Positions 2,601-64,000 of a stretch of DNA of 64,000 bases are shown one piece after another; the first letter of the stretch is position 1; each line of letters starts with the position of its first letter. The notes under the pieces were generated by a model. The model was given only the letters and a program-made list of their open reading frames with translations. It ran no database searches and had not been told where the DNA came from. A program made the position numbers and the translations under genes. Source of the stretch: Liolophura sinensis (lineage: Eukaryota > Mollusca > Polyplacophora > Chitonida > Chitonidae); assembly GCF_032854445.1 (NCBI RefSeq), contig NC_088300.1, positions 65,878,984 through 65,942,983 on the forward strand. The letters run 5' to 3'.

Positions 2601-3510
2601 TTGGTTTGGTTTTATTAAAGGTGGACAGTTTGTTTACAAGTTGAAAAGGGAAAGCACCAACACGAGAATTCTACGTTTGTTTATCACACAATACGAATAG
2701 ATTACCTTGAGTGGAATTATATATGGTCTAAGTTCAACTGATTTTCCTGTTTGTTCTCGGTATTAATGGCTGACAAACGACGATCAAAATGTCTCGATCC
2801 AGTCAACTCAACATCTGTACATATATTCCGTGGGATATTTTTTTGGACTTTCGAGCATAACATTCTGTTATACGGTATAAATGACCATGTTATTAATGTA
2901 TTGCAATCAGTATTGACTTCATCCTTTTGCTGAACATGCCAATACTCGTCACTGTAGCACAAACAGTGTGGCTTTGAAATATGTATAGATATATAGAAAT
3001 GAATTGGTCTGTTTACGTTTTGCTCAGTAGTGTCACGCAGGCTTCTCTTGTCATTGCAGTTGAGACCAACGTGGTTTTAGGAGTTAGTAAACTGTTGAAG
3101 GGGAAACAGATTTTCAGGGCGAAGTTGAACACAACCTCCATACCACTAAGCTCGCAAGAGGCCAAGAAAATCGGAGTTTCTTTTCCGACTAAGACCACCT
3201 TCAATTGGCTTGTTTGAGTAGGCAATGTCAAAGCTTTATCGATTTTATTTCTTCTCTGGTCGTCCGATTATGCCTCTAGTGTCACTCAGACATCACAAAA
3301 CCGAAAAGTAGCAGCCAGTGGTATGCCCTCAATGAATTCACAAAAATTAATAAGTCTATATTAAAATCCCTGTCTTCTGAATAACATTCGAAATATGAAA
3401 ACATTCAATTCCGTAACCAAAATAAATCTGGTGTCCATAAGCGTCTATCGAAGGCCACTAAAGATCAAGTCTAAGTTTTGGATCGTTTGGGAGCCTGTGC
3501 ATCGAAATGG

Positions 3511-14113: not shown

Positions 14114-15989
14114 TAAAAACATTTCGTGCTTATCTCATGGATAAGGTTTGTGTTATACAAAACAGAATCTTTCCGTTCAAAGTCACTCTGGTCCATTATT
14201 CACATGAGATGTAAAGCTCAATAAACGAAAGATGGTCACTTGCCGAGTACGTCATGGCCTGTTGCCCGTGTTCAGTGTTGATGAATGTCATCAAGCTCAC
14301 GGACTGCAACGCCTCGACCCCTGTGTACTGAACTGATAACTGCCATAAGACACGGTCTATAACCATAAGCCATATGCTACAGTGGTTGTACAGGTATCTC
14401 TGAGGAAGATCTATCTGGAAGGAGAGATAAAAGAGAGGACCATCTCGTCACAAGGGCTCTACAGTTGATGGTGGGCGCCATCTGATCTAAACCATGTCAT
14501 CCTAGATCTAAGATCAGAAGCTGACTCCACAGAACCCTTTCTGACTTTTGGATACATTTGTCTGTAGATAATATTAATGAGATGGACAAAATTTTGATTT
14601 CTTAAACCGAAAAGTAAGCTTTTAGATCGAATTTCAAATTCTGGCGTAAGTCAGAAATGGCTTTGTGGAATCGGCCACTGTTTCCTTCTTCGCAGCTTGG
14701 GCTTCAGAAATAATGTGGAAGCTAAGCTGGGAACATGGCCAACCGATCTTAGAGCCAGTTTGATGCATATGTTTGTTATGACCATATAGTTTTGGATAGT
14801 GAATGATTCAATATTGTATGACATTTATTAGCCTCATGGAAAAAAAGGAAGCAAAACGTAAAATCTGTTACACATTACACATCATTAAACAGATTTTCAG
14901 CAGCGTTTGGCTGGATTTTCATTTTGAATTCCTTAAATATGCAATTTTTGGCAAAATAATCGATCAGCACAAAAATCCTATTGAATTTTAGCTATTATTT
15001 TAATATAACCCAAAATATTTGTAAAAAATATCTCTCTTGTTTGTGCACGTCTTACCTGTCAATATCGATAAATAAATTCCTATAACTTGTAAAGCGGTTT
15101 GCATTATAACTTTTTCAAGCTTTAGAATCATTTTAAAACTATAAATAGTACAGGTATAATCGTTTGATACTTGCCGAAGGTCGATAATATAAGCTGTTCT
15201 TGGTAAATATAGAAAGTAGATTTGATTAGCGAATATAAATATTATGCCACGCATCTTTGGCATGGCATCTTTAAAAGAAATAAAGTGGTATCTTTCCTAT
15301 AGTTGATCAAAGTACCGTTATGTTATTGTTGCTGTCAGCATTGAACAATCATGCTGACACTCTTCTTTGTGTAAATCAGGCTCTGGACATTAACACAAAG
15401 AGGAACTCACGCACTCAAACTGCTACAGTACAAGTTCAATTCTACGAATTACTCCTGGTTTGCCGTTTTTAGCTGATTCTCGTTCACGAGACAATAATGT
15501 GGAAAAGGTCGCGATGGTTTGATAGTCCTCGCTATGCACAATGTAAAGATCTCTCACGGCTGGCAGTGCTTAAGACACCAATATCTGATAAATGCTCGTC
15601 ATCTAAGCGGATGGACCTTTGTATAATGTCTCGCTTATAATGGAGAGTTCTGTCTGAATCTCCTTATGTGAGAGATGTAAGACAGATCACAAAGTTTTAA
15701 GCTAATACTGGTACCGATGCCCTAAGCGCACGGCGGAAGTAAGGACATTGCATGGTGCTAAAAGTCTGTGACGGACTCCCTTTTCCGCCCACTACCGGCT
15801 CAAAATTGTTGCTTTTTATTTACCAAAAACGTATTAAAACAAAACGGCAAAGTTGCCAAGGTATCGCTCAAAAGCAACTATATTGTAGGAGGCAAACTCT
15901 CGTCTTAAAATGTGTAACTCGATTACTTCAGAATGTGTGCGAATTTATGACTGGTGCCATGTTTTAATGTGATTGCATATTAAATGTGA
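14114..15989. other. No gene recognised
   Basis: Intergenic AT-rich sequence. GTCAGAAATGGCTTTGTGGA at about 14652 resembles GTCAGAAATGGCTTCTTGGA at about 6292, a further dispersed fragment. No domain is recognised. Confidence 0.45.
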
Positions 15990-16190
15990 TGACAACAGAG
16001 CATTTTGAGTAATTCTTGATCAGTGACATCCAATATGTTGCAATTAACATCACTGCAATTTATTTACCCAATTCGGCTTAAGCCACAGTGTAGTGGTGTG
16101 TACGTTGTTACTTTTCAGCATACACATAAACAGTCGGATTACAACCCTACCTGAGGTAAATTGAGAAGAGGTCGGAGATCACACTATCGT
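15990..16190 (+). repeat. Dispersed repeat family R1, copy 3
   Basis: TTGCAATTAACATCACTGCA, CGGCTTAAGCCACAGTGTAG and TGAGGTAAATTGAGAAGAGG follow the order of the other two copies. Confidence 0.72.
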
Positions 16191-16324
16191 CACTGTCCTG
16201 GGTTTACTGTCTATGCTGTATAGCCTTTTATATTTGAAGGTTTCTCACACGAATTTTTCTAAGAAAAATATGAGAGAACAGGACTGTAGAGAAGAGCATG
16301 CGTCTCATACCGCAATAAGCCGTT

Positions 16325-17140
16325 GCGTCGTTCACATTAAATTAGGAAATGAAAGTAGGTTTGCTGTCTGGAAATAGCTATATAAACGCAGCAACCTCTC
16401 GGCCTGACGAAAATAAGACTTGACAAGATTATGAAATCAGTTACACACTGTTTTTACCTTTGAACTTGGTTTACACAGCTGTAGTGTGTATATCCCTGAC
16501 TAACATAATACAGCCGTTAGAACCAGTCCTATTAGAACAGCTTACCAGGTCTGTCATTTGGCTTCTTGTGTAAGGGATATATTTTTTTCTGGTTTTGCTG
16601 CAGAAAAATGTAAATCACTTGATGAAAGAAGGAAATAATAACGACAAATCCGAATTATGCCCTGAAGAAATCGCGACTAGGATGACAAATTCTTATGGGA
16701 AATGCCTGGGTTTAACATCAGAGACCGGGTGTTTTGTTGTAAGCGATCGATAGATCATCCAGCTGGCAAATGAGTTCCTCGTGGCGGTCAGTGCTGATGT
16801 GGACTTGGGATCACACTGTTACTGTCACAATATGCTGAGGCGGTAGGGAAGAAGCTACAAAGAGCCTTGTCTAAACATGCAAGTCAAGGTAAACCCATGT
16901 CCCACGGGAAATCTCTGTGCAATTTTATCATGTCTTGCTTCAAACTGATGACCAAAATTTGCATTGTCTTGACTCAAGCATGTGTCTAGATGTCGATGAC
17001 AAACACATCACGGAGCTACCTCACACACAAGGCTTCCTTAAAGTAATTAGCGCTGTGACGCTGGTAAATAATGCTCTCAGTGGCAAAGGCAAAAATGTAT
17101 TACATAACGAGGCTGTGACATACACTTCCTTGCCGTTGAC
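16325..17140. repeat. Older tandem duplication, left member
   Basis: Shares with 17325-18420, in order: AATGAAAGTAGGTTTGCTGT, ATCCGAATTATGCCCTGAAG, GTGCTGATGTGGACTTG, AAATCTCTGTGCAATTTTAT, CATGTCTTGCTTCAAACTGA. No coding sequence is recognised. Confidence 0.75.
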
Positions 17141-17166
17141 GTCAAATATGTGGGAAACGCGAGGAA

Positions 17167-17304
17167 TATTATTTATTTATTTGATTGGTGTTTTATGCCG
17201 TCCTTAAGAATATTTTATTTTTACGACGACAATCACAGCCGGGTGGGAGAAAAGCGGGCATAGCCCGGGGGAAACCCACGACCATCCGCAGGTTGCTGGA
17301 AGCG
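17167..17304 (-). mobile_element. SINE fragment, 3' half
   Basis: ATTTGATTGGTGTTTTATGC, then AAGCGGGCATAGCCCGGGGG and ACGACCATCCGCAGGTTGCT. It sits between the two members of an older tandem duplication (16.3-18.4 kb). Confidence 0.85.
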
Positions 17305-17324: not shown

Positions 17325-18420
17325 TATCGGTAAAAAAAATGAAAGTGAGTTTGATGCCTGAAAACAGCTGTAGAATTACTAGCCGTCGGCCAGACGAAGA
17401 TAATACATGGCAGAATATAGTTTACATTCATAAATTAAAATTAGTCACAAATTGGTATTACCTAAAGGCTGTTTTACACAGCAAATGTAGGTGACTGATT
17501 AATATGATAATGCCTTTAGTTCCTTTATGGCACTTCATGGCGTCAGATTTGTCAGTGTTACAGGCGCGCCATTTGACTTCTTGTTGTAAGGGGTGTGTTC
17601 CTTCTGGCGCTGTCTCTGAAAATTGAAATGCTAACGAATCCGAATTATGCTTTGAAGAAATCCCGACAAGGATGACAAATTCATAATGAAAATGCCTTGG
17701 TTTAACATGATCGTATTTTTCTTTTTCCGGTGGATAATGTATAGTACCCTGAGTGGGCCAAAAGGGTCTCTCTTTGCACGCAGCCCGTGCTGATGTGGAC
17801 TATCATATTGCTGAAGTATATTGCTGAAGGCCAGTGGTCTATATCATAAATTCTTGTTCGTCCTACAAACATGTATATACATAAAATTTTTCAGAAGTTA
17901 TATATACCATATGTAATAGAAATATCATGCGTTTTATTTCAGCTTTGGTTCTTTTAACTGATCTTAAACATGTTCGTCTACTTTATTATCATTTTGAATG
18001 TTCTCATTATCTGATCGAAATGCACTTTGGCCACAGTATGGCTGAAATATTGCCGACGTGGCGTTAAGCCATAATCATTCATTCAGGAGGAGGAGGGGCC
18101 GGGTGGGGGGAGGGATTGCGTGATTTGGGTGGGCCTTTGAGGATGGTTGAGGAGGGTCTGGTCTAAACGTGTAGGTCAAGGCACTGATATGTATGTCCCA
18201 CGAGAAATCTTTGTGCAGCGTTTTCATGTCTTGCTTCAATTGATGAGCAAAATTTGAATTATCGGGACTGGAGCATGTGTCTATAGCTGTCGACGAAAAA
18301 CACACCATGGAGTGGTCTCAAAGCAATGATTACTTATGGAAGACCAACTGGAGACACTGGTAAACATTGCCGTGAGTGGACAATTTGATACACGCCGAGG
18401 CTGAGATCTACACTTCATAG
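17325..18420. repeat. Older tandem duplication, right member (interrupted)
   Basis: Counterpart of 16325-17140: AATGAAAGTGAGTTTGATGC, ATCCGAATTATGCTTTGAAG, GTGCTGATGTGGACTAT, AAATCTTTGTGCAGCGTTTT, CATGTCTTGCTTCAATTGAT. It is split by the inserted block 17829-18090, which is also the start of the 33-kb unit. Confidence 0.75.
17829..18090 (+). mobile_element. SINE-like element ending CATTCATTCAG (unit 1, at the duplication edge)
   Basis: The 3' end reads ATGGCTGAAATATTGCCGAC, GTGGCGTTAAGCCATAATCA, TTCATTCAG. A related tail ends at 9225. The block interrupts the right-hand member of the 16.3-18.4 kb tandem repeat, so it looks inserted. Its left boundary coincides with the start of the 33-kb duplication. 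Unit 2 copy: 50832-51092. Confidence 0.55.
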
Positions 18421-18631
18421 GTGTGCGTTAAAGGTGTGTTGAGCTCAAGGTACATGCCTCCATATTGAATGCATTGTTTACTTTGTGTGGACCAATTCAC
18501 CGTTCTTGCATATGTGCGTCAAAACAGACATCTGAACATCAGCAGTCAGTCAAAATAAAATATGAAATTAAGACGGATTCATGCAATGAATTAAGCATAA
18601 TTGAAAAATACACAGGAACTTACACAGTTGA

Positions 18632-19095
18632 ATGCTAAAAAGGCAAACCGTCATAATGAAGGATGTATTTCTTTTTTCTTTAGCGTCGGGAAAAAACTCG
18701 CGAGAACCGCAAACTAAATATGTATCACCGAGTTACAGAACACTACCGTTCTAGTCCTCGACCTACAAACTATACGAATACGATTATCACGGTATTGCCT
18801 TAACTCGGTCAGAAAAAAACGAACAAATTAATACAGCTTCAGCATATAATAACTTGGTTCTGCTCGCCCAATTTACACAACACAGAAGTCCAATAGCAGG
18901 CATGCGGGTTTCTATCGTTGTTTGATAGCTATAGGCAAAAACAGTTCCAGATGTAACTCAATTATCGACAAATGTACTCGACGTCGATGTTACAACGTGT
19001 TGTACAGATGTCAGAATATAACCAAAAAAGTCCTATATTCGAGTGCCGGTGTGTGTTTTTATTTGCCTAAATGGCATTCCAAACTGTCCGACTGA
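18632..19095 (+). pseudogene. Broken counterpart of the 151-codon ORF (unit 1)
   Basis: The same segment in unit 1 has an in-frame TAG at 18752-18754, where unit 2 has AAG. It also has an 8-bp longer stretch near 18841-18857 that shifts the frame. Further substitutions replace the Lys-Asp of unit 2 by Arg-His. Length is 464 bp against 456 in unit 2. It is called a pseudogene only relative to the open copy; both may be non-coding. Confidence 0.3.
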
Positions 19096-20404
19096 ATTAA
19101 GTGCTCTTTAAAGAGTAAGAAGTGGCTTCATTAGTCAGAGCATGGCGTATTAAATAGGAATTCCATCTTGAGCAAAAACGGTACAAGTGATTGAGAATAA
19201 TCGTCCGTCGATGGTCGTTCTCCCATGACAAGCCTACCACAGTCTTCTTCACGCAGTAATTGGTCCCTTCACCTCACCGACGGAAACAATCTGCTGATCG
19301 GAAATTTGCTGATAAAGAGAACGAAATTTACTCCTGATGACTTTTGATTGCCTTCAAAAAGTGTCCGAGACCTCGTCAGGTGTAGGTGTGAGGACGGCAG
19401 GATATACTAGGTTTTTGGAGCTATTTGAGGTATAGAGGTTGTCGAGCACACGAGCTCGTCGGCGTGTTTGGAGTCTTTGGGGCTTTTAAGAGTTACTTTA
19501 TCCGTATTTGGCCAGAAAAACAGAATAAGCCAAATCAACAGGGAGATTTCTACCTAATAAAATATCCAGTGGTCTCCAAATATACAGTACCGTTGAAGAA
19601 AGTCCATTTTCTTGGACTTTTGTTCAATTTGTCGCAATGCTTTTAGGTCATTGTTGTAAATATGTGTAGTTGCAGATTACTATTTCCGAATTAGTCGCCA
19701 CCCACATAAGAACTGTGAGAGCTGTTTTCATTACAACAGACATTTCCTCTACTCTCTTGTCTAACTGGAAGGACTTAAAGATGTCCTCAAGTGAAGGTTA
19801 ATATTTGCCGAAGTCTCGACAGGAACCATATACAGTTTAGTCATACTCATACTCTTCTTTTCCTGCAAAACTGACCACCATAGTGTGACCACCATAGTGT
19901 CGAAACATTCTCAGGGGTGAAAAAAAATAGAACTAAGTGCTTAACCTAATTAAGGACATCAAACGCACAGAGCACTAATAAAAAGAATTGTTGTAGAGGA
20001 ATCTAAACTTTGAGCGGAAGTGATACAATTATTACAACCACTTCAGAATAATTCCGATAGTTCGTTGTCACAGGAGCCTGCATAGGCCTTTGACAAATGG
20101 GGCATAGTTTTGAGGAAAGGCACAAATGGGCTCTGCCAAGCCACATCAAACATGACAATATTAAGTAATAGAGGATTTGCATATGACGCCATCATCACAC
20201 AGCATTTTGACAGACATCTTAATATGGCTTGGGATGAAGACATTGCGCTAGAATGGCTGCCATAAGACTGTGCTAGTCCTCTCTAAGGGAAAACAGGCGT
20301 AACATTGCCACATACGACATGGGATTCGTGTTGTCTTCCACTTGTGTCTATAATTAAATGAATAGCATGCCCATGTTTAAAGATAGGACGTATCTAATAG
20401 TTGG

Positions 20405-20541
20405 TGGGTTCGAATCAAGCTTCCGCCGGTCCATCTGCTGCCGAGGTTTTGTGGTTTACTCCAGGCTCTGTCTAATTTCAGCCATCGATAAACCTGGCTA
20501 CCGTTATGTACGTGAAATATTTGACGTAAAACACCAATGAA
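20405..20541 (+). mobile_element. SINE-like element of a second type (unit 1)
   Basis: A box B-like GGTTCGAATCAAGC opens the block. It then runs through TTTGTGGTTTACTCCAGGCT and CTGGCTACCGTTATGTACGT to GAAATATTTGACGTAAAACACC. The 3' end resembles the main SINE tail but the body differs. Unit 2 copy at about 53391-53527. Confidence 0.5.
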
Positions 20542-20906
20542 TAAACTTAATGTCAGTAAAGGTAAAAACCAGACGATTCACAAAATATATAATGAACACA
20601 TGCGACTGCCCACTTTTTTTGGCATGTTGGTGCGTACATATATAATACTTTCATACATGTCTGACATCAAGAAGGTCTATAATAAAGAACTGTTAACTTT
20701 GAACAGCAACAAAATAGTCCCAGGCAAAAAATATAGCGTAGCTGGTAATTACAGAACGAAAGACATTTACAATAGCTGTAGGACATCCCTTTCGTCGTTA
20801 TCACAGTTCTATACTATCACCGACCACAGATTCAGGGAAGATAACTCTCAGGAGCTTCTGTCACCACAGTCTGTGTCCCTTGGTTGTGTCATTTTACAAA
20901 CATGGC

Positions 20907-21214
20907 GGCCACAGACCCCCATTACAGCTTCCGTTTTTCGGGACAATTTAGGTGTGATTTAGGGTGTAAAGTCTTGCATGCTTGATATCAAAATGATGGA
21001 AATTGTCTAAACTTTGGGCAGGTATGAGTTTTAATGATGAAAGTTTGAAATTCTGGGCGAGAGGACACATGGAGACAGGTGGTGATGATGGCTTTTTCTA
21101 ACAGGCTGGGCCAGATATGCACCAAAGCTTATTGGCCACGGAATGTTCGGGACTGAGCTACATTGCTAAACATTAACACTGTCGCTTAGGGAAAATTAAT
21201 GGGGGTCTGTGGCC
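20907..21214. repeat. 18-bp perfect inverted repeat spanning 308 bp
   Basis: GGCCACAGACCCCCATTA at 20907-20924 is the exact reverse complement of 21197-21214. The left arm contains the end of ATGGCGGCCACAG, which looks like a start-codon context (frame MAATDPHYSFRFSG), but no continuing exon was found. Unit 2 has the same pair near 53892 and 54191. Confidence 0.7.
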
Positions 21215-21994
21215 AGGTATGTATATGCATATTGTAAGAGAGGCTTCTCAAGCTGACAAGGTGAAAATGGCAAGTCTTGAACAAATTTACAACAAAACTT
21301 TTAATAGCTCTTAAAAAAACAAATTATTGCTGTTCTTTACAAACTAAACAAGAATTGTTACTTGTCTGAAGTGCAAGTAAAACTCGAAAAACAGATATTA
21401 AAACTTCATGAAACAAGAGTTCAAATATCTTCCTCATACGATCCCTGACACTGTACACTGCCAATTCTAATTATACATGTAAATATACACTAAGTGATCA
21501 CTTAAATATCCAGCAACATGTGTTTACATAAACGCAAGAAACAAAATAGTAATTGCTCAACAAGCAGTATACAAATACAAGTACTTAAACACAAATACAA
21601 AAAAAGCATTTGCTTTGTATTTTTTCCAAAATAAGTTATAAACACCACAGGACATACCTTTAAGCTTAACTCTTTCGTCTGTGTCAATGCAATAAAAATA
21701 GTTTTACAATTTTCAAAATAGTTTAACAATTCTTTTTTTTTTATTCCTGCAGTTCTTCACAAAGCTGCTATCTCTAGCAGAAACAACTAAAACAGATGAT
21801 GTGATGGACGTCACCGTTTGGAAAAACACCACTATTTTACAATTTAATTTCACTTAAAGAAAATAAAATCTAAATGTCAGCTTCATCGCGAAGAGATTTG
21901 TGGAAAGACCCAGTCAAAATTCCCAAAAGCTGGGTTATGATGAACATCTAACAAAAATATATATTAAGATCACAATTTCTTATGCCCATTCTCT

Positions 21995-22520
21995 ATTATC
22001 AGTATTGAGTAAAGTGAATTTCTCACATTTATTATCATTTCAGTGTCTACTTCAACACATTCTGAGATAATGTGTCATCATACATGAGATAACATGTCAT
22101 CAGTATTGAGTAAAGTAAGTTCTAATTTCTCATATTCATTATCATTTCAGTGTCTACTTCAACATAATCTGAGACAACATGTCATCATACATGAGATAAT
22201 GTGTCATTTTACATGAGATAACATGTCATCAGAATTGAGTAAAGTAAGTTCTAATTTCTCATATTCACTATCATTTCAGTGTCTACTTCAACACAATCTG
22301 AGACAACATGTCATCATACATGAGATGATGTCATCAGTATTATTGAAGTGAATTCTAATTTCTCATATTTATTATCATTTCATTGTCTACTTCCACACAA
22401 TCTGAGATAATTTGTCATCTTACATGAGATAATGTGTCATCAGTATTGCATCAAGGGAATTATAATTTCTCATATTTATTATCATTTCAGTGTCTACTTC
22501 CACACATTCTGAAATAAAGA
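21995..22520. repeat. Imperfect tandem repeat of 100-130 bp, about 5 copies (unit 1)
   Basis: Each unit holds TCATCAGTATTGAGTAAAGT, TTCTCATATT-AT-TTATCATTTC, AGTGTCTACTTCAACACA and TACATGAGATAACATGTCAT. It lies 0.4-0.9 kb beyond the GCN2 stop codon, in a possible 3' UTR or flank. Unit 2: about 54988-55515. Confidence 0.88.
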
Positions 22521-22538
22521 GTCATCTTACGTTTGTTT

Positions 22539-22544
22539 TTTAAT
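22539..22544 (-). terminator. Candidate poly(A) signal for GCN2
   Basis: On the minus strand this reads ATTAAA, about 365 nt beyond the stop codon. AATAAA also occurs further on, inside the tandem repeat (near 22475 and 22368). None is decisive without transcript data. Confidence 0.25.
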
Positions 22545-22908
22545 ATATGTACTGACCCTTTTTGAAAGCAGAGAAATAAAATAAGATATAAGATATTCAT
22601 ACATACCTGAGCTGCAGACAACTATAGACTGTAACATTTAAGAAATGGTTAAACCCAAAAATAACTTTTCAATCCACAGACATGGAAAGCTAAACAACAC
22701 AACAAACATGAAGAATGAATATTAAATATATATCCATGTCATCCTGGACTGAATGAGACAAGTCATTTTCCAGAGTAAAAGAAACAGTCCATAATGCACA
22801 TAAAATTGCTGTGTAGAGAACATATTTGTGTAAGATGATACAAACTAAAATGACTAGAAATCTTTACAAATTTCTCTCCCGTCGTGCTATCGTACATAAA
22901 AACTCAGA

Positions 22909-49663
<26,755 letters not shown>

Positions 49664-49929
49664 CTGAGGAGAAAACTAATACTAATTACACATCAAATAC
49701 TTGTATCATACAGGCGCTGTGGCCCTGTCTCTCCCTGCGAAAACCTATTTGTACCCATATTCACAGCAGATAGAATTATTATGACATAAACGATACATGT
49801 AAAAAAACTCAACAATGATCTAAGTCAAAAAAGAGGAAACTTTAACTGTTTGCATGAAAGTAAGTCTGATAAAAACTCTCGTAAGTTATTTTATTTGTGA
49901 CAATGTATTTGTTTAGTGATGAATTAAAT

Positions 49930-50148
49930 GACCCGTATCAGTATAATGGCTCGGGCGGGTCGGCTTACTTGCCTTTGGTAAGTCGTCTCAGTGAAGCAGC
50001 ACTAAATAAAAGAGTGGTGGAAGTCCGTCCTGCAACAAGGAGGCACATTACACGTACATGCACCCTAATGATTCCTTCGCCGTCATATGACTGAAAAATT
50101 GTTGAGTACGACGTTAAACCCCAAGCACTCACTCACTCACCTCTAAAA
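49930..50148 (+). mobile_element. SINE-like element ending in (CACT)n
   Basis: The block ends GAAAAATTGTTGAGTACGAC, GTTAAACCCCAAGCACTCAC, with CACTCACTCAC at the 3' end. It includes AACAAGGAGGCACATTACAC and TCGCCGTCATATGACTG. This tail is a dispersed molluscan motif in my memory. A second tail copy lies at 50403-50452. It lies to the right of GCN2 exon 1, where missing upstream exons would be sought. Confidence 0.6.
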
Positions 50149-50402
50149 TGGTAGAGTAACCTCAAGGGTGCAGCCCAATTGAAGTCATTTTATTTTTGAA
50201 GGTTGCATAACATATAAGATTGAAGATACTGATTATATTTGAGGCTCTAAATAATCATGTTAGACTTTAAGGGTTGCAACTGTTTTACTTTTACTTTCAT
50301 TATCATTCAGTGTGTATATTTACATAGATCTGGTACATGTATATACATGTAGCACTTATACTTCAGATTAAAACTGTCAGGTATAAAGTCCATGTAGGTA
50401 AG

Positions 50403-50452
50403 CTGAAAAATTGTTGAGTACGACGTTAAACCCCAAGCACTCACTCACTCGC
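50403..50452 (+). mobile_element. Isolated tail of the (CACT)n SINE-like element
   Basis: Repeats the last 50 bases of the element at 49930-50148 (CTGAAAAATTGTTGAGTACG onward, ending CACTCACTCGC), with no body visible. Confidence 0.6.
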
Positions 50453-51633
50453 TGTTGTGACATAACCCACATACTCCATGCTGATTAAGGTCCCGCTTCA
50501 CGCCTCAAAAACTAATCTCACGTTATGTCATAGTCGCTGTAGTTCAACAAGGAAGTTAATTCAGAGCAGGCCTATTACGATTTGGGTAACTTACATATCG
50601 TCCATTTCATGTGGCAAACATCTGAGTAGCATGAACACAGATTTATTCTAATTTACCACCAGAGACATTCAGTCATAACTAAGGGGGATAACTCTTGACG
50701 CCACAGTTTCTAAACGAAAAAGCGTAATACTTTCAACTGTTTTACAAGGGAATTACATGTACCTGTTTCTGAGTATTCTGTGATCCCTTTCTGGTGCACT
50801 ACTAACACCATGATGCTCTGAGCGTGATGACGGCCAGTGGTCTATGTCATAAATCCTTGTTCGTCCTACAAACATGTATATACATAAAATTGTTCAGAAT
50901 TTATGTATACTATATGTAATAGAAATATCATGCGTTTTATTTCAGCTTTGGTTCTTTTAACTGATCTTAAACATGTTCGTCTACTTTATTATCATTTTGA
51001 ATGTTCTCATTATCTGATCGAAATCCACTTTGGCCACAGTGTGGCTGAAATATTGCTGACGTGGCGTTAAGCCATAATCATTCATTCAGGAGGAGGAGGG
51101 GCCAGGTGGGGGGAAGGATTCATGATTTGGGTGGGCCTTTGAGGATGGTTGACGAGGGTCTGGTCTAAACGTGTAGGTCAAGGCATTGATATGTATTTCC
51201 CACGAGAAATCTTTGTGCAGTGTTTTCATGTCTTGCTTCAATTGATGAGCAAAATTTGAATTATCGGGACTGGAGCACGTGTCTATAGCTGTCGACGAAA
51301 AACACACCATGGAGTGGTCTCAAAGCAATGATTACTTATGGAAGAGCAACTGGAGACACTGGTAAACATTGCCGTGAGTGGACAATTTGATACAAGCCGA
51401 GGCTGAGATCTACACTTCATAGGTGTGCGTTAAAGGTGTGTTGAGCTCAAGGTACATGCCTCCATATTGAATGCACTGTCTACTTTGTGTGGACCAATTC
51501 ACCGTTCTTGCATATATGTGTCAAAACAGACATCCGAACATCAGCAGTCAGTCAAAATAAAATATGAAATTAAGACGGATTCATGCAATGAATTAAGCAT
51601 AATTGAAAAATACACAGGAACTTACACAGTTGA

Positions 51634-52089
51634 ATGCTAAAAAGGCAAACCGTCATAATGAAGGATGTATTTCTTTTTTCTTTAGCGTCGGGAAAAAACT
51701 CGCGAGAACCGCAAACTAAATATGTATCACCGAGTTACAGAACACTACCGTTCAAGTCCTCGACCTACAAACTATACGAATACGATTGTCACGGTATTGC
51801 CTTAACTCGGTCAGAAAAAAACGAACAAATTAATACAGCTTCAGCACCTGGTTCTGCTCGCCCAATTTACACAACACAGAAGTCCAATAGCAAGGATGCG
51901 GGTTTCTATCGCTGTTTGATAGCTATAGGCAAAAACAGTTCCAGATGTAACTCAATTATCGACAAATGTACTCGACGTCGCTGTTACAACGTGTTGTACA
52001 GATGTCAGAATATAACCAAAAAGTTCCTATATTCGAGTGCCGGTGTGTGTTTTTATTTGCCTAAATGGCATTCCAAACTGTCCGACTGA
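51634..52089 (+). CDS. Unrecognised 151-codon ORF, open in unit 2 only
   Basis: This open frame ends at TGA 52087-52089. A strong splice-acceptor-like pyrimidine tract ending in TTTAG lies near 51685, so the real coding part may be a terminal exon of about 134 codons starting there. The downstream part is Cys-rich (seven Cys in roughly the last 100 residues), with SKDAGFYRCL and KCTRRRCYNVLYRC. The D-x-G-x-Y-x-C string resembles the F-strand motif of Ig domains, but I see no partner Cys/Trp pattern and do not assign it. No upstream exon was found. It may be chance, since the copy in unit 1 is broken. Confidence 0.3.
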   Translation: MLKRQTVIMKDVFLFSLASGKNSREPQTKYVSPSYRTLPFKSSTYKLYEYDCHGIALTRSEKNEQINTASAPGSARPIYTTQKSNSKDAGFYRCLIAIGKNSSRCNSIIDKCTRRRCYNVLYRCQNITKKFLYSSAGVCFYLPKWHSKLSD

Positions 52090-53390
52090 ATTAAGTGCTC
52101 TTTAAAGAGTAAGAAGTGGCTTCATTAGTCAGAGCAAGGCGTATTAAATAGGAATTCCATCTTGAGCAAAAACGGTACAAGTGATTGAGAATAATCGTCC
52201 GTCGATGGTCGTTCGCCCATGACAAGCCTACCACAGTCTTCTTCACGCAGTAATTGGTCCCTTCACCTCACCGACGGAAACAATCTGCTGATCGGAAATT
52301 TGCTGATAAAGAGAACGAAATTTACTCCTGATGACTTTTGATTGCCTTCATAAAGTGTCCGAGACCTCGTCAGGTGTAGGCGTGACGACGGCAGGATATA
52401 CTAGGTTTTTGGAGCTATTTGAGGTGTAGAGGTTGTCGAGCACACGAGCTCATCGGCGTGTTTGGAGTCTTTGGGGCTTTTAAGAGTTACTTTATCCGTA
52501 TTTGGCCAGAAAAACAGAATAGGCCAAATCAACAGAGAAATTTCTACCTAATAAAATATCCAGTGGTCTCCAAATATACCGTACCGTCGAAGAAAGTCCA
52601 TTTTCTTGGACTTTTGTTCAATTTGTCGCAATGCTTTCAGGTCATTGTTGTAAATATGTGTAGTTGCAGATTACTATTTCCGAATTAGTCGCCACCCACA
52701 TAAGAACTGTGAGAATTGTTTTCATTACAACAGACATTTCCTCTACTCTCTTGTCTAACTTGAAGGATGTCCTCAAGTAAAGGTTAATATTTGCCGAAGT
52801 CTCGACAGGAACCATATACAGTTTAGTCATACTCATACTCTTCTTTTCCTGCAAAACTGACCACCATAGTGTGACCACCATAGTGTCGAAACATTCTCAG
52901 GGATGAAAAAAATAGAACTAAATACTTAACCTAATTAAGGACATCAAACGCACAGTTGCACTAATAAAAAGAATTGTTGTAGAGGAATCTAAACTTTGAG
53001 CGGAAGTGATACAATTATTACAACCACTTCAGAATAATTCCGATAGTTCGTTGTCACAGGAGCCTGTATAGGCCTTTGACAAATGGGGCATAGTTTTGAG
53101 GAAAGGCACAAATGGGCTCTGCCAAGCCACATCAAACATGACAATATTAACTAATAGAGGATTTGCATATGACGCCATCATCACACAGCATTTTGACAGA
53201 CATCTTAATATGGCTTGGGATGAAGACATTGCGCTAGAATGGCTGCCATAAGACTGTGCTAGTCCTCTCTAAGGGAAAACAGGCGTAACATTGCCACATG
53301 CGACATGGAATTCGTGTTGTCTTCCACTTGTGTCTATGATTAAATGAATAGAATGCCCATGTTTAAAGATAGGACGTATCTAATAGTTGG

Positions 53391-53527
53391 TGGGTTCGAA
53401 TCAAGCTTCCGCCGGTCCATCTGCTGGCGAGGTTCTGTGGTTTACTCCAGGCTCTGTCTAATTTCACCCATCGGTAAACCTGGCTACCGTTATGTACGTG
53501 AAATATTTGACGTAAAACACCAATGAA
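53391..53527 (+). mobile_element. SINE-like element of a second type (unit 2)
   Basis: Counterpart of 20405-20541, with small differences (CTGCTGGCGAGGTTCTGTGG against CTGCTGCCGAGGTTTTGTGG). Confidence 0.5.
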
Positions 53528-54987
53528 TAAACTTAATGTCAGTAAAGGTAAAAACCAGACGATTCACAAAATATATAATGAACACATGCGACTGCCCACT
53601 TTTTTTGGCATGTTGGTGCGTACATATATAATACTTTCATACATGTCTGACATCAAGAAGGTCTATAATAAAGAACTGTTAACTTTGAACAGCAACAAAA
53701 TAGTCCCAGGCAAAAAATATAGCGTAGCTGGTAATAACATAACGAAAGACATTTACAATAGCTGTAGGACATCCCTTTCGTCGTTATCACAGTTCTATAC
53801 TATCACCGACCACCCATTCAGGGAAGATAACTCTCAGCAGCTTCTGTCACCACAGTCTGTGTCCCTTGGTTGTGTCATTTTACAAACATGGCGGCCACAG
53901 ACCCCCATTACAGCTTCCGTTTTTCGGGACAAATGTAATTTTGTGTGATTTAGGGTGTAAAGTCTTGCATGCTTGATATCAAAATGATGGAAATTGTCTA
54001 AACCTTGGGCAGGTATGAGTTTTAATGATGAAAGTTTGAAATTCTGGGCGAGAGGACACATGGAGACAGGTGGTGATGATGGCTTCTTTCTAACAGGCTG
54101 GGCCAGATATGCACCAAAGCTTATTGGCCACGGAATGTTCGGGACTGAGCTACAGTGCTAAACATTAACACTGTCGCTTAGGGAAAAATTAATGGGGGTC
54201 TGTGGCCAGGTATGTATATGCATATTGTTTCATGAGAGGGTTCTCAAGCCGACAAGGTGAAAATGGCAAGTCTTAAACAAATTTACAACAAAACGTTTAA
54301 TAGCTCTTAAAAAACAAATTATTGCTGTTCTTTACAAACTAAACGAGAATTGTTACTTGTCTGAAGTGCAAGTAAAACTCGAAAAACAGATATTAAAACT
54401 TTATGAAACAAAAGTTCAAATATCTTCCTCATACGATCCCTGACACTGTACACTGCCAATTCTAATTATACATGAAAATATACACTATGTGATCACTTAA
54501 ATATCCAGCAACATGTGTTTACATAAACGCAAGAAACAAAATAGTAATTGCTCAACAAGCAGTATACAAATACAAGTGTTTAAACATAAATACAAAAAAA
54601 GCATTTGCTTTGTATTTGTTCCAAAATAAGTTACAAGCACCACAGGAAATACCTTTAAGCTTAACTCTTTTGTCTGTGTCTATGCAATAAAAATAGTTTT
54701 ACAATTTTCAAAATAGTTTAACAATTCTTTTTTTTTATTCCTGCAGTTCTTTACAAAGCTGCTATCTCTAGCAGAAACAGCTAAAACAGATGATGTGATG
54801 GACGTCACCGTTTGGAAAAACACCACTATTTTACAATTTAATTTCACTTAAAGAAAATAAAATCTAAATGTCAGCTTCATCGCGAAGAGATTTGTGGAAA
54901 GACCCAGTCAAAATTCCCAAAAGCTGGGTTATGATGAACATCTAACAAAAATATATATTAAGATCACAATTTCTTATGCCATTCTCT

Positions 54988-55515
54988 ATTATCAGTATTG
55001 AGTAAAGTGAATTTCTCACATTTATTATTTCAGTGTCTACTTCAACACATTCTGAGATAATGTGTCATCATACATGAGATAACATGTCATCAGTATTGAG
55101 TAAAGTAAGTTCTAATTTCTCATATTCATTATCATTTCAGTGTCTCTACTTCAACATAATCTGAGATAACATGTCATCATACATGAGATAATGTCATTTT
55201 ACATGAGATAACATGTCATCAGAATTGAGCAAAGTAAGTTCTAATTTCTCATATTCACTATCATTTCAGTGTCTACTTCAACACAATCTGAGACAACATG
55301 TCATCATACATGAGATGATGTCATCAGTATTATTGAAGTGAATTCTAATTTCTCATATTTATTATCATTTCATTGTCTACTTCCACACAATCTGAGAAAA
55401 TTTGTCATCTTACATGAGATAATGTGTCATCAGTATTGCATAAAGGGAATTATAATTTCTCATATTTATTATCATTTCAGTGTCTACTTCCACACATTCT
55501 GAAATAAAGAGTCAT
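54988..55515. repeat. Imperfect tandem repeat of 100-130 bp (unit 2)
   Basis: Counterpart of 21995-22520, with small indels between units. Confidence 0.88.
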
Positions 55516-55897
55516 CTTACATTTGTTTTTTAATATATGTACTAACCCTTTTTGAAAGCACAAGAAATAAAATAAGATATAAGATATTCATACGTACCTG
55601 AGCTGCAGACAACTATAGACTGTAACATTTAAGAAATGGTTAAACCCAAAAATAACTTTTCAAACCACAGACATGGAAAGTTAAACAACACAACAAACAT
55701 GAAGAATGAATATTAAATACATATCCATGTCATCCTGGACTGAATGAGAAGTCATTTTCCAGAGTAAAAGAAACAGTCCATAATCCACATAAAATTGCTG
55801 TGTAGAGAACATATTTGCGTAAGATGATACAAACTAAAATGACTAGAAATCTTTACAAATTTCTCTCCCGTCGTGCTATCGTACATAAAAACTCAGA

Positions 55898-58800
55898 TCA
55901 GCCCAACAGCTTAAAACTGTCATCTTTGATGCCGTACAAAATTATCACACACGTTCTGAAAAAGACAAGAAAAAAAATTCCAAGTATTTTTCAGTTATTG
56001 TACTTACCTTTCATTCTGTTAAAAAATTCCAAGCATTTTTTAGTTATTGTAGTTTCCTCTATTATTATTATTATAGCAATTTATGACAAATATCAATCAG
56101 CCAGTTCATAGCTATTTTACCATTCTTACAATATGCATTTGTGTTCAGCCTCTTTCTTTTCTCACATTCTAAAAGGCTTAGTTCATTACAGCCCATCTGT
56201 CACACAAAAGGCATTGCGAAAACAAAGATAAATCAAGGTTTAAATAAAACAATCCAATAAAACCTGTTCATCAAAAGTTTAACATGAGTTGTTATAAATT
56301 TCTCTGAAGAAATATAATCAGAGTAACATTTCTTCACTTACAGGTTTAGATGAAGTTTTATAAACTGTATTAAACCAGTGCATATTCAGCATCTTTACAT
56401 TGTAATAGACAAAATCTGCTCAGTAGGAAATACACTTACTTTCTCTCATTGGTAAATTTTAGGTCATGTATATGGTCAATTACATAGGTGAGGTATTTTC
56501 TGTAACGTGGTTGTCTGTAATCAAAAACACCAAACCATGTAAAGGAAACAGAAAACATAGTACACTTATACTCTGTGGTCCTAGTAGCTTATGCTGACTT
56601 TCTTTCCGGTGACTGATATTTGGGAAGGTCTTGCAAAAACCTGCAGATGGTCATGGGTTTCCCACCCACCCCGGGGCTCTGTCCGGTTTCATATCACCAT
56701 AATACTTCCTGTTGTGGTCCATGTAAAAGTGAAATATTCTTGAGAACAGCGTAAAACTGCAATCAGGTAAATAAAAATAACATGGTTATATTTAAAGGCA
56801 AAGGTTCTCTAACATGTCTGTTGCTGATTTGCCCTGGAAACCAAAAACCACAAAAGGAGATATTCTGAAGTTGGGTCATACCCAGATAATTAGCCACCAG
56901 TTGTATGAATGCAGACCTAATATTACAGACAATATTACAGCCAAGTAACATTTTGAGGTTGTAACATCTTTCCTAAGCTAATCAGTGACCATATTTATTT
57001 ATTTATTTGATTGGTGTTTTACGCGGTACTCAAGAATATTTCACTTATACGACGGCAGCCAGCATTATGGTGGGTGGAAACAGGGCACAGCCCGGGGGAA
57101 ACCCACGACCATCCGCAGGTTGCTAGGACCTTCCCACGTACGGCCGGAGAGGAAGCCAGCATGAGCTGGACTTGAACTCACAGCAACCGCATTGGTGAGA
57201 GACTCCTGGGTCATTACGCTGCGCTGGCGCGCTAACCAACTGAGCCACGGAGACCCCCTCAGTGACCATATCATAGATTGTAAAACATTAAAACCTGAAT
57301 TATATGTATAGGAACTTGTTCTATCAACAGCTACTGGCTTGTCACATATCCTGGGTGTGATTGTTCAAAACTGTTCTAGATTAAGACTAATCTGACTTAA
57401 TGCCAGATTTAGCTTTAAGCCAAGTCTTCAGTATAGTACTTAGCCCAAAAAGCTTTGTGCAGCAGTATATTCAGTATGAACTAAATGCTGTTACACACTG
57501 ACTTTAAACAACTGCTTTGGCTGCAGAATAATCTGAAAACAAATGACTTAATACCAGTATTAGCTAGGACACTTTCCAACAATTGAGCCCTGAAGTGTAA
57601 TGTAATGAACTGATTTATGTATACGTACAGGTGATGACCTCTCCGTCAACATCATAAACTACCATACTAAAATAGATTTTCAATGATTTATTGTAATCAC
57701 GTAACATTTCACTGAACACAATGGCTGAGAACATCCTGGTCAACAACATACCTTTCCATAACAGCGCTGACACTCTCCTGGAACTCTGCCTCTGTGCCTT
57801 CAAGCTACAAACCCACATGTCATATACAGGATTAAACTTAGAGTGATGGCTAACCTGTCCATTAACAACAGTTCCTAATCAGGGTGATCGCTAACCTGTC
57901 CGTTAACAACAGTCCTTACTCAGAGTGATCGGTAACCTGTCCGTTAACAACAGTCCTTACTCAGAGTGATCACTAACCTGTCTGTTAACAACAGTTCTTA
58001 CTCCGAGTGATCGCTAACCTGTCCGTTAACAACAGTCCTTACTCAGAGTGATCGCTACCCTGTCCATTAACAACAGTTCTTACTCAGAGTGATCGCTAAC
58101 CTGTCCATTAACAACTGTCCTTACTCAGAGTGATCGCCAACCTGTCCGTTAACAACAGTTCTTACTCAGAGTGATCGCTGACCTGTCCGTTAACAACAGT
58201 CCTTACTCTGAATGATCGCTAACCTGTCCATTAACAACAGTTCTTACTCAGAGAGATGGCTGACCTGTCCATTAACAACTGTCCTTACTCAGAGTGATCG
58301 CTAACCTGTCCGTTAACAACAGTCCTTACTCAGAGTGATCGCTAACCTGTCCGTTAACAACAGTCCTTACTCAGAGTGATCGCTAACCTGTCCATTAACA
58401 ACAGTCCTTACTCAGAGAGATGGCTAACCTTTCCATTAACAACAGTCCTTACTCTGAGTGATCGCTAACCTGTCCGTTAACAACAGTTCTTACTCAGAGT
58501 GATCACTAACCTGTCCATTAACAACAGTTCTTACTCAGAGTGATCGCTAACCTGTCCGTTAACAACAGTCCTTACTCAGAGTGATCGCTAACCTGTCCGT
58601 TAACAACAGTCCTTACTCAGAGTGATCGCTAACCTGTCCATTAACAACAGTCCTTACTCAGAGTAATCGATATACTTCTTGTTCAATCTATTTGTTAATT
58701 TGATTTGTGTTTGATCCTGTGCTCAAGAATTTTTTCACATATATGATGGCAGTCAAGTTTATGGGCTAGGGAAACAAGAGTGTCCAGATTAAAACGCCGA

Positions 58801-61800
58801 TCTCTGGCAGGTACATCAGGAATTAGATCCTGTGCCCATTATTTACAAAACACACGTGACCTTTATTTTTTTTTTTGATTGTTGTTTTACGCCGTACTCA
58901 AGAATATTTCACTTATGCGACGGGGGCCAGCATTATGGTGGGTGGAAACTGGGTAGAGCCCGGGGGAAACCCACGGCCATCCGCAGATTGCTTCCCACGT
59001 ACGCATGTGACCTTTATGTTATGTTACACAAAATTAATATAAGATGTTTCGTGAAAGTAGGCCAAGTGGTGGACATGGTGTCCTACAGGTAGTTTACTTG
59101 TAAATCCACAGCTAAAGTGTCTTACATTGAGATATCCCGAGATACTCCTCAGTACAGGGGCACCCAGATCTAGGGCAATTACTTCTGTCACCACCTTACC
59201 CCACATCCAACCAAAGTGGGGGGTCAGTCGGGCAAAAATCTGTAACAGGGATAAAGTGAAACTTGTCACTCAGTAAAACATGAATGCTGAAGAAGACACT
59301 GTTATTATCAAGACCAGTTCAATTACAGTACAGTATCAGTAAAACCGAAGCTTATATACAACTTCATCCAGAAAAGAGCAAATCTTCAATCCATGATTAC
59401 ACGTCAACAATCTTATGTCAACATATGCAGCTATGTTCATGATTTGGTTAAATTCATGACCATGACCATAATTTTTGACCAAATAAATCTTATTTCTTTA
59501 TGTACAATTCATTTCAACTATAACACCTAACCTAAACAAAATCCATGAAATTTTCAATTAATATTTAGGATTATTCAGTTTAGGCTAACTCAGTTGTAAT
59601 AAATACTTGTATACATTTTTGCTGTAAGATCAAACCACCTGACTCCTACCTGAGTTTCATATTTCTTCTTCATGTTCTGCGTTTGTTTGGTCTTGTGCTC
59701 AACAGGGATGTATGTGAAATTGAATGATGAGAAGTTGTTGACGCTGCTGCTACTGGTCCCAGAAGCTGATTGGATGTGGACTGAGTCGCCACTGTTTTGA
59801 CTGGTTGGTGGGTAGGAACTTTTCCCACTGCTGGTCTGAGAGCCTTCTCCATTTTCTCTGAGAGGGGGAAAACAACAACAACTTGTACAACACTGGGCTA
59901 CCAAACCTTTTGTAATGCATTCAACTGTTGTTTACTAGCAATATGAAGTTCTATTACTACATAACTTAATTACTTAATACAAATTAAGGTCAAAAAATGG
60001 GAAAACTCGCAGTTTTACATCCATTATTTCTAATACCTTGAAACAAAATATTTCTTCGTATTTTGCAGTAATTCAGAAAAACGCACGACGATTCCTTCTC
60101 TGATGCTCCATTTTGCATGGTCATCTACATACATGTAGACAATACAATGAGTTACGATATACATGTACATGCATTGAGACATGTGAGGCAAGGTGTCAGA
60201 AATAGCTCTTACAATCTTGAGGCTCTCAGCTTCTGGTGTAGGTAATCCACCAGGTCTGTGGTGTTCACTTTCTTCTCTGTCACCTTATCCTTCTCCACAG
60301 ACCTTACCTGTAATGAACAAACTCAAATTATACCCGGCCCAAGTTTAATTACATGTAGCCCCACATGTAGTTTTATTTATAATATTTTCCCTTATTTATT
60401 TGACTTGTGTTTTATCCTGAACCCAAGAATATCTATTTTGTGTGATGGTCAGGTTTATGGGTGAAAAAATTGAGAGAGTCCTGGTGAAATCAGCCCACAG
60501 ACATGTACATGTGGTACAAGTGTACAAACCTGTCACAAAATATAACCTCAATGACTCCAATGACCTTGAAAAAAGGGACCAATTTTACAAAAAATGAACA
60601 GTGTTCTTCCTAATGCCTGAGTGTACCTGATTGTAGTTTCCCAGTTTCGCAAACCTGGCTCCAGGCATCCAAAAAATATCAGTGGAATGTTTTACGAAGA
60701 AGTGGATGGATGGACGGACGGACGGATGGATGGATGGATGGATGGATGGATGGATGGATGGATGGATGGATGGATGGATGGACGGACGGACGGACGGACG
60801 GACGGATGGATGGATAAATGGACGGATGGATGGATGGACGGACGGATTTAATTCTATAAGTTAATATAGGTTTACATGCCTTTAGGTTGTAGGATCTGAG
60901 ACTATTCACTAACACATGTATGTGATTATCACCAAAACATGGCCATTTAAAACTTTTAACACACAACTGTTTCATCTATGTTTTTGTTTTGTCTGCCTTA
61001 TTTGTCTTACCTTGACATGCCCAGTTTCTGAATCTTTAAGAATCACAATGTGTGATATAGACAATGTCTTACACCTCTCCTGAATGTCTTCAAGTGTCTG
61101 TAAAAGACAAATAGTGTTATTCTCTGTTTCTTCATTCTTCTAGGTAAAATACGAATGAGATCAAATACAGTGCACCTCACAGAGACTAGAGAATTCAATG
61201 TTTCAAATTTAAGTATGGTTTACTTCCATGTCAGCAATATTTCAACAACACCATGGTGTCCATTTCACTACTGCTGTCGACATATAAATGGAATAGATAT
61301 TCAAGGACACCTAATTACATGTAAATGTTAATTCATGCTGACAGCACATCTGACCACATCAGACTGACCTGTAGAGCCTCATACAAGACCTCAGCCCTTA
61401 GACCTGCTGACCACAAGTCTCTGACCACATTCAATCTCTCCTTTAGCATGGCTTTATGTCCAATAGTACACACCAAAATGTCACTGGCACTTTGAGGCTG
61501 AAACAAAATGAATGACTGGCATGACCATAAGATTTGATTGTTAAAGTTTAAAACACCACATAAACTTTACCAAAATTTTAAGACACAAAATTCCATGGGT
61601 TCATAAAGTTGTATCCACATATACATGTATTATTTTTCCTCAGACAGAATCCTAGTTTTTTCATGTTTCATTAAGTAAAAGGGAGACTACTGTAGCACTG
61701 CGTCATGAATAATGGGCTTGTCCTGTAGCATATCTTTTTTTAATCTTACTGAGTGTATGGCAGTATACTTATTACAGTACAGTATTTCAAGTAAAGTAAA

Positions 61801-63582
61801 ACCATACATGCACTTCAGTTATAAGAATCAGATATATATCAATCAGAATGTGGCCATACTTCAGTTAGAATGCGGCCATATTTCAGTCAGAATGAGGCCT
61901 CGGTTCAGTCAGAATGAGGCCATACTTCAGTTAAAATGAGGCCATGCTTCAGTCTGAATGAGGCCGTACAAGTAGTTCAGTAAGAATGAAGCATATTACA
62001 GTTAGAACAAGGCCATATTATAGTTAGAATAAGCCATACTTCAGTTAGTATGAGGACATACCAGTTAGAATGAGGCCATATTTCGGTTAGAATGAGGCCA
62101 TACTTCAGTTACAAAGAGGCCATACTTCAGTCAGAATGAGGCCATATATCAGTCAGAAAGAGGCCATATGTGTAGTTCGGTAAGAATGAAGCCATATTAC
62201 AGTTAGAACAAGGCCATATTACAGATAGAATGAGGCCATACTTCAGTTAGTATGAGGACATACCAGTTAGAATGAGGCCATATTTCGGTTAGAATGAGGC
62301 CATACTTCAGTCAGAATGAGACCATACTTCAGTCAGAATGAGGCCATATATCAGTCAGAATGAGGCCATATGTGTAGTTCGGTAAGAATGAAGCCATATT
62401 ACAGTTAGAACAAGGCCATATTACAGATAGAATGAGGCCATACTTCGGTGTGAATAAGGCCATATTAAAGATAGAATGAGGCCATACTTCAGTTAAAATG
62501 AGGCCATGCTTCAGTCTGAATGAGGATGTACATGTAGTTCAGTACGAATAAAGCATATTACAGTTAGAACAAGGCCATATGATAGTCAGAACAAGGCCAT
62601 ATTATGGTTAGAACAAGGCCATATTACAGTAAGAATAAGCCATACTTCAGTTAGAATGAGGCCATACCAGTTAGAAATGAGGCCATACTTCGGCTAAAAT
62701 GAGGCCATACTTCAGTCAGAATGAGGCCATACTTCAGTAACAATGAGGCCATACTTCAGTCAGAATGAGGCCATATGTGTAGTTTAGTAAGAATGAGGCC
62801 ATACTTCGGTGTGAATAAGGTCACATTATAGATAGAATGAGGCCATACTTTGGTGTGAATAAGGCTATATTACAGATAGAATGAGGCCATACTTCAATAT
62901 GAATAAGGCCATATTATATATAGAATGAGGCCATACTACAGTATGAATAAGGCCACATTATAGATAGAATAAGACCATACTTCCGTATGAATAAGGCCAT
63001 ATTACAGTTAAAACCATATCACAATTAGAACATCACCATACTTCAGATGAATAGATGAGGTCATTTTTTTTCAAACAAATTCCTATACAGATTGGAGGCT
63101 AAAGTGAGTTTCCATACCTCCTGGTACTCAATCATGGCATTGACAACCTTGTCAAATGCCACACTTACACCGACACCATGCTGGACAGTGGACGTATCAG
63201 TCAACATCGGGGTATGGAACTGGGAAATCTGCAATATATCAAACCCAACATGTTTTCACTGATGCCTGTGACTGTTACTAGTAAACACACAATTGTATTT
63301 TTGGAATTCCTCTTTAGATATCTTAAAACAATCTAATGGTTGAAATCCAAGAAAATTCAAACTCCACTGTAAATGCATGAAACTGATTTTTGCTTATTCA
63401 CTCAACATGCACATTACACAGTATTTTACTTCCAAAGTTTTTCTTACCATTTTATTGTAACGTCCACCAGCTGCCAAGATGTCTGCCACAACACGTTTCT
63501 TTCTGCGGACATCTGACATCACTTGGAACACAACTCCAGAATACTGCTGGCAGTTGAAATGTAGGCCCAACGTGACAATATC
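55898..63582 (-). CDS. EIF2AK4: GCN2 unit 2 copy, last ten exons (25-34); rest outside window
   Basis: Each exon matches the length and phase of its unit 1 partner: 63448-63582, 63118-63228, 61369-61497, 61011-61097, 60213-60307, 59650-59857, 59126-59239, 57752-57804, 56440-56514 and 55898-55955 (stop). All splice sites and reading frames are intact. The differences noticed are few. One is Asp to Val in the exon 30 linker (A at 59702 against T at 26273). Another is a silent ACC/ACG change in exon 26. The upstream part of this copy should lie to the right of 64,000. If the duplication is real, that copy is the one expected to carry the RWD domain and the native promoter. It could equally be the second haplotype of the same locus. 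Confidence 0.93.
56604..56779 (+). mobile_element. Diverged SINE, 3' half (unit 2)
   Basis: Counterpart of 23612-23788, with small differences in the C-rich block. Confidence 0.75.
56995..57253 (-). mobile_element. Same full-length SINE in unit 2
   Basis: Orthologous to the unit 1 element at 24008-24265, with the same flanking TCAGTGACCATAT repeat. A few substitutions separate the two, for example in the tRNA-like head and at GCGGTACTC against GCCGTACTC. Confidence 0.9.
57841..58668. repeat. 41-bp minisatellite, about 20 copies (unit 2)
   Basis: Same repeat and position as 24849-25220, but more than twice as long. This array accounts for most of the length difference between the two units. 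Confidence 0.93.
58863..59005 (-). mobile_element. 5'-truncated SINE, unit 2 counterpart
   Basis: Same insertion as 25424-25568, with a shorter T tract, about 10 bp less in the truncated end and substitutions in the flanking repeat (CACGTGACCTTTA and CATGTGACCTTTA). Confidence 0.85.
60702..60848. repeat. GGAT/GGAC tetranucleotide array, long allele (unit 2)
   Basis: About 36 tetramers at the site matching 27258-27316. The spurious peptide (MDGW)n comes from this array. Confidence 0.95.
61840..63030. repeat. Degenerate 22-bp minisatellite (unit 2)
   Basis: Same array as 28305-29370, but over 100 bp longer and with a different order of variant blocks. It contains a duplicated block around TATGTGTAGTTCGGTAAGAA. 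Confidence 0.92.
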
Positions 63583-64000
63583 CTATCAAAACAAAATCCA
63601 GGAAGTTACATGAAAGACAGTACAAAACAGTATTACTGTATAAACAAAAGTGTCATCACAATGGGATCACGATCTGGCCATGATAAAGACAATAAAGTTG
63701 TCCATCCATGCGTAGGATAGGACAAGTACTGTTTCTCCAGCTATCAATGCATTGGGAACTACCCTACATAACCATAAATTTCGTCCATGACTTGCCCATT
63801 TTTCCTCATTCCGACAGTTCTATTGATTTTAAACAGGTGTTTTGAGGTTTGCTCGGAACGTGGGATGATAGTTCACTGGAAAAAGTTTCAGTACCAAACA
63901 AAATTTTCTGTGACATTTATTAACCCCTAAAAATGCACTTTTGTGGGCGAAATTTTAGGTCATTTAGAGTAGCTGATCATCAAGTCTGCTGTCTGCACAA

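Follow-up and report, generated by a model that had tools for sequence, protein, structure and literature searches.

A 33-kb head-to-tail repeat in a chiton genome assembly sets a 5′-truncated GCN2 copy beside a complete GCN2 gene

The stretch analysed here (the window, 64,000 nucleotides, positions 65878984–65942983 of sequence C6) belongs to the genome assembly of the chiton Liolophura japonica (GCA_032854445.1; 609,464,459 bases in 632 sequences) and carries two copies of sequence from the kinase gene GCN2 (EIF2AK4). Flanking sequence was added, 30 kb to the left and 70 kb to the right, which brings the total covered to 164 kb, and coordinates are continued past the window end. A first-pass annotation, which had correctly placed the DNA in a marine mollusc, described a sequence that starts at 17,829, restarts at 50,832 in the same orientation and stays colinear for at least 12.5 kb. 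Self-comparison reproduced this restart to the base, and the first unit does occupy exactly the interval between the two starts (17829–50831). Colinearity extends beyond 30.3/64.0 kb, the second copy running to 84304, and unit 2 is complete, with sharp ends, once the right flank is added. Of the short interspersed element (SINE) insertions said to be shared, the one at 24005–24266 has a counterpart at 56992–57259 and is indeed common to both copies.

Unit 2 and the right flank together hold a complete GCN2 gene (copy 2; Table 1). Exon cores were picked by eye with the aid of a human sequence, and their ends were set by a splice-score search with two hand corrections, so that single exon ends may be off. 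The product of exons 7–28 scored 838 bits against human GCN2 (8t7t), the pseudokinase, kinase and HisRS-like parts matching human residues 268–1214 (E = 8.5e-251). The RWD exons 1–5 matched human residues 18–195 (E = 1.3e-35), and exon 1 gave a Pfam RWD match (E = 3.8e-5). Exons 36–40, for a putative C-terminal domain, were placed by eye against a human sequence; a profile search of the genome for the GCN2 anticodon-binding family gave no match, the controls likewise being unmatched. Since the unit includes the last exon with its stop, nothing is missing from the 3′ end of copy 2, and on the same ground an internal duplication within one gene was rejected.

Unit 1 contains no counterpart of exons 1–5. 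Its GCN2 sequence (copy 1) starts in the middle of exon 6, and lacks about 230 codons, the RWD domain and the native start. It has the orientation of the complete gene and is situated approximately 5 kb downstream of it. Exons 7–40 form an open frame without stop or frameshift, and AG/GT dinucleotides are kept where they were chosen in copy 2. The pseudokinase, kinase and HisRS-like parts are present and score 802 bits against human GCN2, a value below that of copy 2 partly owing to the deletions in copy 1. Downstream of the stop, both copies have polyadenylation-like signals. The block had been annotated as carrying GCN2, and this holds for exons 7–40 and the rest of exon 6 but not for the RWD exons 1–5, which lie outside it, the tested part of that flank being single-copy; a duplication of the whole of GCN2 was rejected because exon 6 is cut. 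As the right breakpoint cuts exon 6 and leaves the start and exons 1–5 unduplicated, the assembly has one complete GCN2. The choice between tandem duplication and joined haplotypes, which had been expected to decide between one GCN2 gene and two, does not do so, as there is one complete gene either way; what is at stake is the existence of a truncated extra copy. The RWD domain of GCN2 binds GCN1 (PMC10931611), and a putative copy 1 protein would lose this contact because the domain is missing.

Table 1. Features of the repeated GCN2 locus (window coordinates, continued past the window end at 64000)
Feature	Position	Strand	Remarks
Unit 1 (copy 1)	17829..50831	+	33,003 bp; self-comparison and breakpoint alignment
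Unit 2 (copy 2)	50832..84304	+	33,473 bp; in-window part 50832..64000 = first 13.2 kb
GGC microhomology, left breakpoint	17829..17831	+	read from aligned breakpoint sequences
Tandem junction between unit end and unit start	50832..50834	+	3-bp microhomology GGC, no N
GGC at right breakpoint	84305-84307		outside window
Copy 1 GCN2, 5′-truncated	22909..50831	-	remainder of exon 6 to exon 40
Copy 1 exon 17	41319..41426	-	213-bp in-frame deletion, kinase insert, vs copy 2 (74597-74917)
Copy 1 exon 15	42675..42802	-	21-bp in-frame deletion vs copy 2 (76169-76317)
Copy 1 intron 6 rearrangement	49929..50450	.	476 bp inverted vs copy 2 (82947-83422)
Copy 2 GCN2, complete	88379 (ATG) to 55898 (stop)	-	40 exons, 1717 aa; window holds 3′ part 55898..64000
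Copy 2 exons 1-5 (RWD)	88379-84602	-	outside unit and window
Exon 6	84408-84236	-	cut at 84305 by right breakpoint

The 164 kb contain no N, and the junction at 50832 thus lies in gapless sequence. A 261-bp junction query had one match in the assembly, each of its halves had one match elsewhere, and nothing else was found. Apart from short repeat matches, each of two pieces taken from the unit was found at full length twice, as copies 1 and 2. On the flanks, a 2.4-kb segment to the right (84330–86700) and a 2.8-kb segment to the left (14500–17300) each gave a single full-length match, the remainder of the 40 candidates scored being short repeat matches. GCN2 exons 23–28 were each matched twice in the assembly and nowhere else (12 matches). 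In combination, these searches reveal a direct adjacent repeat with one novel junction and, judged by one piece per flank, single-copy surroundings. The long homology or repeats at both breakpoints that mark non-allelic homologous recombination were not found, GGC alone being common to the breakpoints, and SINE-mediated unequal crossing-over was rejected because the breakpoints are without repeat.

Aligned over the whole unit, the copies differ at 964 of 31,478 bases (3.06%, repeats and one mis-aligned inversion included). With exons and seven masked repeat stretches set aside, 443 of 22,297 bases differ (2.0%); by region, the figure is 2.29% beyond the gene, 2.16% for the kinase part and 1.66% for the HisRS part. 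Indels of at least 100 bp consist of tandem-array length differences, the 213-bp coding deletion in copy 1, stretches of 231 and 205 bp found in copy 2 only, and the region 49929–50450. In this last region, within intron 6, copy 1 has not only the inverted segment but also 48 bp of added SINE tail, and it lacks about 499 bp that stand in copy 2 (83423–83921). The ancestral state is probably that of copy 2, which has the fuller SINE. The rearrangement as a whole (copy 2: 82947–83921) resembles a template-switch scar. Strong length differences between the copies are also seen in minisatellites at 24842–25224 and 57836–58669, 43397–44405, and 33759–34679 (41, 127 and 19 bp, respectively).

In exons 7–40 the copies are separated by 24 nonsynonymous changes at 3,243 sites and 8 synonymous changes at 914 sites; gapped codons were excluded, and one two-base codon change was entered as two nonsynonymous changes. 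With exon 15 taken as shorter, the counts had been 22 and 8. Exons 7–22 hold 22 nonsynonymous and 3 synonymous changes, and exons 23–40 hold 2 and 5 (Fisher p = 0.0048; 0.023 with the split point permuted), the split having been made post hoc on 32 changes, two of which share one codon. General protein constraint was rejected as the source of the few changes in exons 23–40, human–chiton identity being alike in both halves (300/718 and 294/663 residues), and so was gene conversion, since introns there are 1.66% and synonymous sites 1.0% apart. Under neutrality of copy 1, the expectation for exons 23–40 is 14.6 nonsynonymous changes, against 2 observed, the Poisson means assuming that half of the intron divergence accrued on copy 1. 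The pattern, with 22 of the 24 nonsynonymous changes in exons 7–22, is described here and not fully explained. Overall synonymous divergence (0.87%) is below that of the introns and other non-exon sequence, which we cannot explain beyond the small numbers involved. When human residues were used as reference, 6 of 25 differing residues matched copy 2, 2 matched copy 1 and 17, not polarisable, matched neither (two of the 25 are at deletion edges); a 10:1 polarity read by eye (binomial p = 0.012) is superseded by this computed 6:2.

A real tandem duplication appears to be the best reading of these data, and we give it a probability of about three in four. YaHS writes 200 N per gap. The assembly, for which hifiasm, purge_dups and YaHS were used, is reported to have 1,110 gaps and 0.0364% N (PMC11068029), an average of 200 N per gap, and an N-free junction would therefore stem from the contig assembler and not from the scaffolder. 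The first-pass annotation had set a direct tandem duplication against two haplotypes joined end to end; the former is the better reading, and the latter is made less likely by the absence of N, the unrepeated junction and the 3-bp overlap. The proposed event would be an end-joining or template-switching event using the 3-bp microhomology GGC, by which a point 5 kb past the GCN2 3′ end was joined to one inside exon 6, so that 33.0 kb came to be repeated head to tail on a single chromosome of the animal sequenced. The copy adjoining the right flank would have retained exons 1–5 and the 5′ flank as the complete gene, and the other would begin in mid-exon 6, with neither RWD domain nor native start. 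The geometry, the single junction, the exon content and the open frame of exons 7–40 are directly observed. From them we infer the existence of the duplication in the animal and not just in the assembly, its mode of origin, and the derived, less constrained status of copy 1; the duplication may be carried by just one of the two haplotypes. In kind, the predicted event is an ordinary partial gene duplication.

Several observations weigh against this reading. HiFi coverage is just 14x with a mean read length of 8,347 bp (PMC11068029), and the non-exon divergence of 2.0% is close to the allelic range, given a mean heterozygosity of 1.24% in the same report. Exons 7–40 of copy 1 are open and, with 2 nonsynonymous to 5 synonymous changes in exons 23–40, show an excess of constraint for a dead copy. 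The case for copy 1 as the changed copy is weak at the level of residues because of the 6:2:17 split. Finally, a simple microhomology junction with no underlying repeat is suggestive only, since 5.9% of 200,000 random position pairs from the region share at least three bases.

It is conceivable, though only as a tentative proposal, that the duplication is real but arose by unequal exchange between divergent homologues, and it may then segregate; this is a sub-case of a real duplication, and the confidences overlap. Under such an origin the 2% divergence would predate the duplication and give no age. A divergence of just ~1.6 times the mean heterozygosity is consistent with it. However, the breakpoints, with GGC alone shared, offer no long homology for guidance, and one genome cannot separate such an exchange from an old intrachromosomal event.

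An assembly artefact, a heterotype false duplication in which two haplotypes of one GCN2 locus follow each other, one broken off in exon 6 and the next beginning 5 kb beyond the gene, is unlikely. The allele-like divergence for a heterozygous mollusc, the wholly open exons of copy 1 and the low HiFi coverage all fit this explanation, and false duplications of the kind are described at more divergent haplotypes, where they can place most of a gene beside itself, as for ZBTB11 in zebra finch (PMC9516828). The marks listed in that account are half depth, a gap between the copies, discordant pairs and one-copy k-mers; the gap is absent here, the 164 kb being without N. A gapless junction, and an overlap of 3 bp that is too short for a false join, make joined haplotypes less likely. 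The assembly was moreover purged of haplotypic duplication, after which 0.9% of 954 benchmarking universal single-copy orthologues (BUSCOs) were duplicated in genome mode (PMC11068029), a published figure that alone serves here as the background rate of similar tandem copies. The ratio of nonsynonymous to synonymous changes in exons 7–22 (22 to 3) would also be unlike that of two intact, functional alleles of a conserved kinase. It should be added that the amount of Omni-C data is given as ~397 Gb in the text of the assembly report and as 39.7 Gb in its table.

We consider it improbable that copy 1 yields a functional RWD-less product, whether a new promoter or read-through of copy 2 drives it, with the kinase C-lobe, HisRS-like and C-terminal domain half kept by selection and exons 7–22 drifting or adapting. 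The contrast between the two sets of exons, which survives correction for the choice of split, the similar human identity of both halves, which leaves general constraint as no explanation, and the deficit of nonsynonymous changes relative to neutrality would all favour such a product, as would the fact that exon 39 of copy 2, if spliced to exon 7 of copy 1, would be in frame with it (chance 1/3). Still, the split is post hoc and the changes are few, both stops are followed by polyadenylation-like signals, and the ground is shared with the real but ordinary duplication preferred here. Very improbable is the stronger version, in which selection on copy 1, as a young GCN2 paralogue without RWD domain, would be split: the half with the HisRS-like and C-terminal parts would be kept, and the half with the pseudokinase and kinase N-lobe would be free to change. 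Such a protein would be a naturally GCN1-independent GCN2 that serves the amino-acid stress response as a decoy or dominant regulator, and read-through might produce it fused in frame to the complete gene.

For the assembly, the number of complete GCN2 genes is settled at one, where a gene count could wrongly give two. If reads confirm the tandem duplication, the locus would be a gapless case of a partial tandem duplication that removes the activator-binding domain from one kinase copy; if they refute it, it would be a false duplication that passed purging in gapless HiFi sequence, of use to assembly curators.

The Rpp20 (POP7) gene lies head to head with GCN2 at L014:4633–5235 (window coordinates 88633–89235), with a few hundred bases between them, and a common promoter is probable. 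As Rpp20 (POP7) faces GCN2 near its start, this likely shared 5′ region would be kept by copy 2 only. The 40 exons of the chiton gene are as in vertebrates (39–40), in contrast to the ~10 exons given for invertebrate EIF2AK4 (PMC5851622). The left flank contains LINE-like (long interspersed element) endonuclease and reverse transcriptase pieces (L011:663–2733), and the right flank contains part of a transposase (Pfam DDE_Tnp_1_7; L015:4804–5295). Open reading frames searched against Pfam, five from the window's left part, one from the 5-kb stretch beyond GCN2 and a further two within the units, revealed no host gene; a single SP2 match fell below cut-off, and Rfam at gathering thresholds found nothing within the window. 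In the literature searched, the titles and abstract openings listed on GCN2/EIF2AK4 duplication in molluscs mentioned no chiton GCN2 duplication, and nothing was found there joining Liolophura japonica with GCN2.

The locus resembles the microhomology-associated tandem duplications described at copy-number variant breakpoints of Drosophila and human (PMC4056370) in its simple junction, in a microhomology within their 2–10 bp and in ends without long homology; it differs from them in that it spans 33 kb, its copies are already 2% apart and it is seen in one assembly rather than in a population. With heterotype false duplications (PMC9516828) it has in common adjacent copies, allele-like divergence and part of a gene repeated beside itself, whereas here no gap separates the copies, which lie in a HiFi contig of a purged assembly. 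Compared with GCN2/EIF2AK4 itself, copy 2 and its flank present the RWD, pseudokinase, kinase and HisRS-like parts over 40 exons, and a putative C-terminal part. Conversely, copy 1 is without exons 1–5 and part of exon 6, and hence without the GCN1-binding RWD domain.
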